The translations under genes were made by a program, and so were the position numbers. A stretch of 64,000 nucleotides of DNA from SAR86 cluster bacterium. Its GTDB lineage: Bacteria; Pseudomonadota; Gammaproteobacteria; Magnimaribacterales; Magnimaribacteraceae. Below, in pieces: positions 36,944-39,713 of the stretch (the first letter of the stretch is position 1; the number at the start of each line of letters is the position of its first letter). The stretch spans positions 41,029-105,028 of the forward strand of contig JADHSF010000001.1 of the NCBI GenBank assembly GCA_016777005.1. The letters are read 5' to 3'. Below the pieces are notes generated by a model. That model worked only from the letters and a program-made list of their open reading frames with translations. It made no database searches and was not told the DNA's origin.

Positions 36944-36970
36944 AAAAAAAAGGCATCCTTAGATGCCCTT
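36944..36970 (-). terminator. intrinsic terminator after the 77-aa membrane protein
   Basis: On the minus strand GGCATC-taag-GATGCC is followed by eight T residues. It lies 15 bp past the stop of the small membrane protein and immediately before the hydrolase start codon. Confidence 0.8.
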
Positions 36971-36985
36971 TTATAAAAGTCCTTT

Positions 36986-37219
36986 TTAAGTCGATCTAGA
37001 ATTCCAAACGCTTAATATTATTATTATAGCTATAATTAGACCTAGCCCCTCAGAACCTAAAATACCAATAACAGTTTGTACGTTTACAAGTATGTTACCA
37101 AAAAATGGTACATTTGTTCCGAATAAAGTGGAGACCAATACCGCCACAGCAACCAATAAAGACAGAAGCTTAGTAAGCTCCCATAGTCCTATTTTTATTC
37201 TTTCTATATAATTCAACAT
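36986..37219 (-). CDS. small two-helix membrane protein, paralogue B
   Basis: I do not recognise the family. The protein is 77 aa: a short charged N terminus (NYIERIKIGLWE), a first hydrophobic helix (about 13-33), a loop with the motif FGTNVPFFGNIL, and a second helix (about 53-72) ending in WNSRST. It is a paralogue of the adjacent 37287-37523 gene; both share the pattern VPF-x-G-x2-L-x-N and LG-x2-GL. The track start (37234) is TTG; the ATG at 37219 has a good GAGGA ribosome binding site 8 nt upstream. A terminator lies on each side. Confidence 0.7.
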   Translation of the reverse strand: MLNYIERIKIGLWELTKLLSLLVAVAVLVSTLFGTNVPFFGNILVNVQTVIGILGSEGLGLIIAIIIILSVWNSRST

Positions 37220-37231
37220 AATACAAGTCCT

Positions 37232-37268
37232 CAAAAAAAAGGGGGCACCTTGAAAAGGACCCCCTTTA
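37232..37268 (-). terminator. intrinsic terminator between the two small membrane protein genes
   Basis: On the minus strand AAAGGGGGTCC-ttttcaa-GGTGCCCCC is followed by eight T residues. The T-tract runs straight into the GAGGA ribosome binding site of the next gene, so the downstream gene relies on readthrough. Confidence 0.88.
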
Positions 37269-37286
37269 ATTAAATAAATAGAGACC

Positions 37287-37523
37287 TTATCTGTTATACA
37301 TACTCATTAATAGAGCAAGAACAAGAAGACCTACTAATCCATTTTCACCAAGCATATTTACTAAATCTAAAAGATTGCTAAGTACGCCTCCTACAAAAGG
37401 AACGCTGTCACCAAACACAACTCCAGCAGCAACTCCTAAAGCAACAAGAGAAACTACCAAAGCAGTAACCTGTCCAATAAAGTCTGTAAACATAGTCATT
37501 ATTCTATCCATCATTTCACCCAT
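37287..37523 (-). CDS. small two-helix membrane protein, paralogue A
   Basis: I do not recognise the family. The protein (78 aa from the ATG at 37523; the track's TTG start adds five residues) has an amphipathic, Met-rich N terminus (MGEMMDRIMTMF), a first helix of small residues (about 14-37, VTALVVSLVALGVAAGVVF), the loop GDSVPFVGGVLSN, and a second helix ending LLMSMYNR. It is a paralogue of the next gene. It lies between pnp and that gene, is followed by a strong terminator and preceded by an 18-bp dyad. The start codon is uncertain because no good ribosome binding site fits either choice. Confidence 0.68.
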   Translation of the reverse strand: MGEMMDRIMTMFTDFIGQVTALVVSLVALGVAAGVVFGDSVPFVGGVLSNLLDLVNMLGENGLVGLLVLALLMSMYNR

Positions 37524-37540
37524 TTTTTTGCTAAACAAAT

Positions 37541-37558
37541 GTCCAAATAAATTTGGAC
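37541..37558. promoter_or_regulatory. 18-bp inverted repeat upstream of the small membrane protein pair
   Basis: GTCCAAAT-AA-ATTTGGAC is an 8-bp perfect inverted repeat with a 2-bp centre; an outer CTAAA...TTTAG pair (37531-37535 and 37566-37570) extends the symmetry. It has no T-tract, so an operator or an RNA hairpin near the ribosome binding site fits better than a terminator. Confidence 0.5.
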
Positions 37559-37628
37559 TAATTCATTTAGCAGGACGATGACAATTAAAACAAACGTATC
37601 ACTAACACAAACTATAAGAAATTACAAA

Positions 37629-39713
37629 TTAATCTTCTAATCCTTTCATTGTAAGTCTGATTTTGCCTTGTCTATCAACTTCAAGAACTTTTACTTTTAC
37701 CTCTTCACCTTCAACAAAGTAATCAGATACATTTTCAACTCTCTCTTCGGAAATCTCCGAGACATGAACTAACCCGTCTCTTCCTGGCATAATTGTTACA
37801 AAAGCTCCGAAGTCCTTAATATTGGCAACTGTACCTGTGTAAATCTTATTCACTTCAGGTTCTGCAGTAATTTCTTCAATTCTTTTTTGAGCAAGTTCCC
37901 TAGATGCAGGAGTATCGCCATAAATTGTAACTTTACCACTATCATCGACTTCAATTATTGCTCCAGTCTCTTCAGTTAAACCTCTGATTGTTTCTCCGCC
38001 CTTACCAATTACGTCTCTTATCTTCTTAGTATTGATTTGGACTACGACTGCTTGTGGTGCTTTATCTGATAATTGTTCTCTAGAAGACGATATCACTTCA
38101 TTCATGCTAGATAGTATGTGTGCCCTTGCGGTATGCGCTTTTTCTAGAGCAACCTCAAAGATTTCTTCTGTGATTCCATCTATTTTGATATCCATCTGAA
38201 GAGCAGTTATACCTTCAGAAGTTCCTGCTACCTTAAAGTCCATATCTCCTAGGTGATCTTCGTCACCTAAAATATCTGTAATAACAGCAAAACCCTCTTC
38301 TTCTTTCACCAGACCCATTGCAATACCAGCAACAGCAGCTTTTAATGGGATACCTGCATCCATTAAAGCTAAACTTGATCCACACACACTAGCCATAGAA
38401 CTAGATCCGTTCGATTCTGTAATTTCAGATACTACTCGGATTGTGTAAGGGAAATCGTCCGGAGACGGCAATACAGCCTCAAGTGCTCTTCTAGCTAGCT
38501 TTCCATGACCAATTTCTCTTCTTTTAGGACCGGACATAAATCCAGCTTCTCCAACAGAATAAGGAGGGAAATTATAATGGAGCATAAATTGATCCTTAAA
38601 TTCACCTTCAATAGCATCTATAAGTTGTGCTTGTCTTGGAGAGCCTAAAGTTGAAGTAACGATTGCTTGAGTTTCACCACGAGTAAATAATGCAGAGCCA
38701 TGAGTATTCTTAAGGACTCCAGTTTCTATGAAGAGAGGTCTTACTGTATCTAAGTCTCTGCCATCTATTCTAGGCTCACCTTTAATAAGTTTCGTTCTTA
38801 CTACTTTTTTCTCAATCTTTTTAACTGCATCAAGTAGATCTGCTCTAGTGGGAGCTCCATCTTCTCCGGTATCATGAGACTCAAGGAGAGACTCTTTTAT
38901 AGCTGATAAGTTTTGGACTCTATCTTGTTTAATCTGAATCTCATAGGCTTCTGCGATTGCTTCAGAACAATTCTTTTCTACAAGTTCTATCACTTCTGAG
39001 CTGATCACTTTCGGTTTATATTCAAAGTCTGGTTTTCCTATATCCGATGCCATTTCTTTAATGGCTTCTATAGCAACTTGCATTTCTTGATGAGCAAATA
39101 ATATTCCACCTAGCATTTGATCTTCAGATAACTCTTTAGCCTCAGATTCGACCATAATTACAGCGGCATCACTTCCAGCTATGACCATATCTAAATGAGA
39201 GTCTTCGAGCTCGCTTCTTGTAGGATTTACACAGTAATTCCCATCTATGAAGCCTACCCTGACTGCTCCAAGAGGACCATTAAACGGTAATCCAGAAATA
39301 GCCACAGCCGCTGAAGCAGCTATGAAAGACAAAACATCAGGATCGACATTCTTATCTGATGAAATAACTGTACATATAACTTGTACTTCATAAAGAAAGT
39401 CATCGTTAAATAATGGCCTTAAAGGTCTGTCAATCAGCCTTGAAGTAAGAGTTTCTTTTTCTGTGGGTCGACCTTCTCTTTTAAAAAAACCACCTGGTAT
39501 TTTACCGGTGGCATATGTTTTTTCTTGATAATTTACAGTGAGAGGGAAAAAGTCTTGATGTTCTCCAGGTGCTTTTCCTACTACTACAGTTGCCAGGACC
39601 TGCGTATCTTCACAAGTTGCAATAACTGCTCCAGTTGCCTGTCTAGCAACTTTCCCTGATTCTAAAGTGATTTCTTTATCGCCTAATTTAAACGATTTTT
39701 TATAACTTTCCAT
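37629..39713 (-). CDS. pnp: polyribonucleotide nucleotidyltransferase
   Basis: PNPase degrades RNA 3' to 5' with phosphate. Two RNase PH domains flank a helical linker (the second with [23 protein letters not shown]), followed by a KH domain (about 555-615; [15 protein letters not shown]) and an S1 domain (about 620-690; [28 protein letters not shown]). The length is 694 aa, near E. coli's 711. It is last in the rimP-nusA-infB-rbfA-truB-rpsO-pnp run. Confidence 0.98.

Follow-up and report, generated by a model that had tools for sequence, protein, structure and literature searches.

Two adjacent genes encoding small membrane proteins occupy positions 36986 to 37523 of the window (the whole 64,000-nucleotide stretch of DNA analyzed here, from a SAR86 cluster bacterium). 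As the original prediction had described, the two open reading frames lie next to each other and share sequence motifs; both are on the minus strand. They are termed P2 and P1 below, P2 being the first gene of the unit. Family labels f1 to f4 refer to four taxonomic families of the SAR86-type order, with f1 including this window. The genes and the features around them, in the direction of transcription, are as follows:

37629..39713, minus strand: pnp (polynucleotide phosphorylase), the upstream neighbor, outside the unit; the neighbor differs in f3 and f4
37600..37631, minus strand: putative promoter region, with ATTTGT and TGTGTTA/TATGCTA blocks conserved across f1 (from alignment only)
37529..37572, minus strand: two-stem structured 5' leader of P2, with inner stem 37541-37547/37552-37558 and outer stem 37529-37535/37566-37572 (from covariation)
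37515..37520, minus strand: Shine-Dalgarno sequence of P2 (GGGTGA), lying inside codons of the 78-aa call
37287..37523, minus strand: P2, first gene of the unit, two-helix membrane protein (78-aa call; likely true start 37511, 74 aa)
37233..37268, minus strand: intercistronic terminator-like hairpin and T-run (AAAGGGGGTCC..GGTGCCCCCTTT-T; from folding and comparison)
37228..37232, minus strand: Shine-Dalgarno sequence of P1 (GAGGA)
36986..37219, minus strand: P1, second gene of the unit, two-helix membrane protein (77 aa, ATG at 37219)
36944..36967, minus strand: terminator-like hairpin after P1 (GGCATC..GATGCC and T-run)

Paralogy and architecture of the two proteins

Products of 78 and 77 aa had been predicted, and the second length stands for P1. 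For P2, a start at 37511 and a length of 74 aa are most likely, because the codons of its apparent first residues (MGEM) correspond in relatives to ATGGGTGAAAT, the ribosome-binding site of the later start codon; comparison with relatives likewise places a conserved ribosome-binding sequence (GGGTGAAAT) over the first four apparent residues. Both proteins carry the FG-x2-VPF-x-G-x2-L-x-N motif (FGTNVPFFGNILVN and FGDSVPFVGGVLSN) and an LG-x2-GL pattern. They align at 33% identity over 60 aa (BLASTP, E 8e-9), and the two orthologue sets, compared profile against profile, match at 99%, in agreement with the proposed origin of the pair by tandem duplication. Where computable, dN/dS was 0.01-0.24 for both genes, which indicates that P1 and P2 are both under purifying selection, and a chance origin of the frames is excluded because the adjacent pair recurs across the SAR86-type order with these dN/dS values.

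AlphaFold modeled each protein as a helical hairpin, with helices at residues 2-40 and 45-77 in P2 (pLDDT 90) and at 2-36 and 38-76 in P1 (pLDDT 84), which bears out the two-helix membrane topology that had been proposed; the suggestion that the helices are rich in small residues was supported as well. Across 69 aligned sequences, the family columns run from an amphipathic segment through a hydrophobic helix, a loop (G38-x4-F43), another amphipathic segment, and a second hydrophobic helix to a basic end, with G62, L63, and G65 of the second hydrophobic helix near-invariant. The basic C-terminus suggests that both ends of P1 and P2 face the cytoplasm. At column 21, the wide family has a conserved acidic residue (99% polar); it is gone from P2 of the SAR86-type order, and an acidic residue there is kept in many P1 proteins. 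N-terminal charge was rejected as a discriminator of the two paralogues, P1 being basic only in the SAR86-type order and not elsewhere.

Two kinds of related protein were seen in addition. A relative in another member of the class (G285, f113; L055:1153-1704, minus strand) ends at its predicted cytoplasmic side in a long lysine-threonine tail (KTKTKT..) that resembles an H1-type tail. Some genomes of the order encode weakly similar membrane proteins (L045:1557-1911, L046:1479-1755, L048:1532-1808, and L043:1532-1922, all minus strand, in reverse-complement positions) that match the family profile at E 5e-6 to 0.02, share a related second helix, and have additional helices; these are possible distant third paralogues.

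The original prediction could place the proteins in no known family, and this held in every collection searched. Pfam, NCBIfam, and PHROGs returned only sub-threshold matches and did not identify the family, a profile search of PDB chain sequences gave only chance hits and no related chain, and Foldseek found no match for the P2 model in PDB or BFVD. Thus, no strong match to a characterized family came out of the profile searches, and literature searches found no description of this family.

Expression signals of the unit

The unit is laid out as a structured leader, a strong ribosome-binding site, P2, a terminator-like hairpin, and P1. A single strong hairpin, usually followed by T residues, lies between the genes in every SAR86-type pair examined. 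Hairpins of -12 kcal/mol or lower were present in 42 of 42 pairs, which come from related genomes and are not 42 independent events, versus 4 of 19 control gaps, a small set of same-strand gaps of similar length drawn from 14 stretches of related genomes. The stems are unrelated between families (GAAAGGGG/CCCCTTTC in f1 and GAGCCGGAG/CTCCGGCTC in f3), so it is the structure and not the sequence that has been kept. About 13 nt separate the end of the T-run from the P1 start codon in this window, and in one f4 genome (L033) the P1 ATG directly abuts the T-run; because the T-run nearly or directly meets the start, P1 has no room for a promoter of its own in SAR86-type genomes. The intercistronic hairpin is absent from the MarineAlpha5 and G398 pairs, and SUP05 pairs have ~215 nt between the genes, which leaves room for a second promoter.

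Upstream of P2, a strict sigma-70 scan found no promoter at 37600..37631, the region that alignment marks as a putative one. In f1, the P2 leader forms a nested pair of stems in which six base pairs show compensatory changes, and its covariation score (0.237) exceeded all 500 shuffles (mean 0.152) as well as slid controls. Rfam matched only tRNAs in the window, with no family matching the leader at 37529-37572. This leader may be a regulatory or stabilizing RNA element in its own right.

Ribosome-binding energies of the first gene had family medians of -8.3, -11.0, -12.9, and -8.4 in f1 to f4, against a background with a median of -2.5 and a 5th percentile of -9.3. In f2 to f4, a site is essentially missing from the second gene, with energies near -1. 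Both genes have a site in f1, where that of P1 at least equals that of P2 in most genomes; the asymmetry between P2 and P1 in f1 therefore rests on the hairpin and on synonymous divergence. High expression usually shows as low synonymous divergence, and this divergence was lower in P2 than in P1 in 20 of 21 non-overlapping genome pairs (Wilcoxon p 7e-5); in 17 of 18 pairs it was also lower than in the ORF upstream of P2, which is pnp in f1 and f2. These signals in the genomes make higher expression of P2 than of P1 well supported, and from synonymous divergence, the hairpin, and the ribosome-binding sites together, we infer a very abundant major protein in P2 and an ordinary or minor paralogue in P1.

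Distribution in cells and viruses

The family is common among aquatic bacteria. Within the SAR86-type order, it is present in 49 of 61 genomes (own genome included), across four taxonomic families and nearly always as an adjacent pair. Neighborhood comparison found the P1 and P2 frames present in close relatives, with the pair adjacent there too. The pair sits between pnp and ychF in f1 and f2 (with a hydrolase gene in between in f1) and elsewhere in f3 and f4, and no recurrent neighbor was seen outside the SAR86-type order in the loci read. Judged from these gene orders, the pair itself is the unit, and its neighbors give no functional clue.

The original prediction missed that the family occurs in several phyla, has been duplicated in tandem more than once, and is carried by tailed phages. 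With a wider profile, matches were obtained in 8 of 369 genomes sampled from the class, of which five lie beyond the SAR86-type order; additional genomes sampled from the phylum gave no match other than the own genome. Relatives occur in 31 of 60 genomes of Thioglobus/SUP05 (the order of G382, recognized by proteins identical to those of named records). A scan of genome contigs returned 165 loci, and among the best 80 of these, which were read, the taxon labels (mostly from MAGs) included Nitrospina, Nitrospirae, Opitutae, Planctomycetota (including Sedimentisphaerales and Phycisphaerales), Rhizobiales, Rhodospirillales, and single-cell Alphaproteobacteria. Among 61 genomes from the family to which one Rhizobiales carrier belongs, 13 have the gene, always as a tandem pair, and single copies were found in Planctomycetota and Opitutae. 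Profile-profile comparison linked two SAR86-type groups, Planctomycetota, both Rhizobiales copies, and the f105/f135 group at 92-99.6% probability. The family tree, built on 77 columns and with only some forks resolved, places the SUP05 pair in one clade (100/97) and the Nitrospina copies in another (100/91). Because each forms a clade of its own, tandem duplication is, to judge from this tree, independent in at least the SUP05 and Nitrospina lineages.

When viral contigs were first scanned with one SAR86-type sequence as the query, nothing matched. With a bridging alignment of SUP05 and SAR86-type sequences as the query, 428 IMG/VR contigs were found to encode a relative, 80 of which were analyzed, and later viral scans added 4 and 1 further loci. 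The viral scan for the MarineAlpha5 type gave no match, and tblastn searches of plasmids and INPHARED phages found no relatives. In 69 of the 80 viral loci, ORF calling gave a family member, always as a single copy, and phage copies lie on the same strand as their neighbors in most groups. The four viral-collection loci that the first of the later scans added resemble SAR86-type P2 at 44-54% identity. One contig (L223) carries Terminase_6N/6C and Phage_portal (Pfam) next to the family gene, and by this gene content its identity as a phage is settled. The PhoH and ribonucleotide reductase genes of L239 and the PhoH and ATP-dependent DNA ligase genes of L293 are supportive, although not exclusive to phages; L284 has a weak, sub-cutoff match to a gp19 tail tube, and some phage contigs are T4-like by gene content. 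The carrier phages probably infect chemolithotrophs.

In the tree, viral group C falls inside the Nitrospina clade (97/90), and viral groups A, B, and D form one clade (92/84) whose join beside SUP05 is weak (82/5). With one viral clade nested in Nitrospina and another grouping beside SUP05, the tree suggests at least two captures from hosts by viruses.

Several neighbors of the viral copies were recorded along the way. Two other small membrane proteins (phrog_2524 and phrog_38283) are encoded near the family gene at L223:2153-2898 and L288:4132-4566 and could be lysis proteins. On one contig of the viral collection, the gene immediately upstream of the family gene encodes a Gram-negative porin (Porin_4, E 9e-23; L288:2063-2899), and on two putatively viral contigs of that collection (L292:1212-3981 and L295:1244-3979), a SAR86-type copy is found near a Gcw_chp protein and a ferredoxin-NADP reductase-like gene.

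Candidate roles and likeness to known systems

The reading that we prefer, with a probability of about 0.4, is that P2 and P1 together make up a self-contained unit of two genes whose products are helical-hairpin proteins of the cytoplasmic membrane, P2 being the major and P1 the minor version. Each protein would consist of an amphipathic segment, a membrane helix, an amphipathic segment, and a membrane helix, and P1 would be made in smaller amounts, mostly by transcription through the intercistronic terminator. P1 and P2 are plausibly subunits of one oligomer, in which they would assemble with unequal stoichiometry. The points in the sequences that support this reading are the homology of the two proteins, the conserved pair, the intergenic hairpin, the ribosome-binding asymmetry that three of the four families show, the synonymous divergence of P2 below that of P1, and the copies on phage contigs. 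The modeled hairpin folds, the lack of room for a P1 promoter, the covarying leader, and the separate tandem duplications in SUP05 and Nitrospina also speak for it. Because Planctomycetota and Opitutae have single copies, the family as a whole cannot depend on an assembly of two subunits. We further hypothesize that the oligomer keeps or shapes the membrane or its energized state in the living cell, and that phages would bring their own copy for the same reason as they bring other highly expressed host membrane proteins, to the benefit of the infected cells; this role and the matching reason for phage carriage are the weakest step of the proposal, and a doubtful one.

The two genes could instead be side-by-side paralogues that form independent homo-oligomers, the hairpin ending the first transcript and P1 being expressed by read-through or from a start that escaped detection. 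Such independence would fit the terminator-like hairpins flanking each gene, the single copies of many lineages, and the long intergenic gaps of SUP05. Nevertheless, adjacency has been kept across four families despite changed chromosomal neighbors, and P1 lacks room for its own promoter in SAR86-type genomes, so that we regard this arrangement as rather unlikely. Another candidate is a holin- or antiholin-like permeabilizer, serving phage lysis and programmed permeabilization in cells; a holin-like complex was among the roles on which the original prediction had speculated. In size and topology, the proteins are like holins and other small phage membrane proteins with two helices, the family occurs on tailed-phage contigs, and one phage group (other groups differ) has a membrane protein with predicted hydrophobic helices upstream of the family gene and the large terminase downstream. 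Against this candidate, no holin profile of Pfam, NCBIfam, or PHROGs was matched, phage copies fall inside or beside host clades, the gene is broadly conserved in cells (order-wide and under purifying selection), and it shows signs of constitutive high expression, under which a pore would be lethal. A permeabilizing role thus seems improbable.

Superinfection exclusion or another membrane-level defence, T4 Imm-like in phages and blocking DNA entry in cells, would account for a small two-helix membrane protein that occurs on phage contigs, some of them T4-like, and also in hosts. Yet order-wide conservation with signs of constant high expression is unusual for defence genes, and in Pfam, P1 and P2 matched no family at E 1 and eight relatives no immunity family at E 0.1, which makes such a role quite improbable. 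Finally, single members gave sub-threshold hits to type IV secretion pilins or similar proteins (TrbC, E 0.009; TIGR03745, E 0.004; DUF2976, E 0.03), and two hydrophobic helices with an amphipathic N-terminal segment are also found in VirB2/TrbC pilins. A pilin or a conjugative-element membrane protein is nonetheless very improbable: hhalign probabilities were at most 3.1%, near the reversed control (1.1%), and this comparison ruled out a VirB2/TrbC (PF04956) or DUF2976/TIGR03745 identity. Moreover, neither PF11190 (DUF2976) nor PF04956 (TrbC) was matched in the own genome, secretion genes are not nearby, and P1, P2, and their relatives, inspected by eye, have no leader peptide and start directly with the amphipathic segment, whereas TrbC members have leaders.

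If the unit is indeed one for a major and a minor membrane protein, it would represent a membrane component widely shared by abundant, uncultured bacteria of the ocean (SAR86-type, SUP05, Nitrospina, and MarineAlpha5) and also found in Planctomycetota, Opitutae, and some Rhizobiales, from a family that Pfam, NCBIfam, and PHROGs leave unnamed and that lacks a structure. That phages have captured it would indicate a role of importance during infection, and the small single-copy versions should be easy to express and purify. A more far-reaching picture, of a multi-phylum family among the most abundant SAR86-type proteins that forms a new major/minor membrane assembly, was duplicated in tandem independently, and was captured repeatedly by marine phages since infected cells need it, is tentative and somewhat unlikely; if true, it would add a cell-membrane component that is absent from the curated family libraries searched.

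Two known systems offer the closest parallels. Cyanophage psbA is an example of an auxiliary host gene carried by phages, and, as with such phage-carried host membrane genes, the family described here combines signs of very high expression in the host, a single copy in tailed phages, and viral copies inside or beside host clades; unlike for the psbA class, the label "auxiliary metabolic" is not established for it. The arrangement of the pair itself recalls the Rhodobacter puf operon (pufBA, intercistronic hairpin, pufLM). We know of no sequence relation of P1 or P2 to the puf proteins, and, unlike in puf, P1 and P2 are paralogous to each other and pigment binding is not suggested. In puf, abundant small membrane proteins are encoded before the hairpin and less abundant partners after it, as we propose here, and a stable hairpin likewise stands between the proposed major and minor genes in all 42 SAR86-type pairs.
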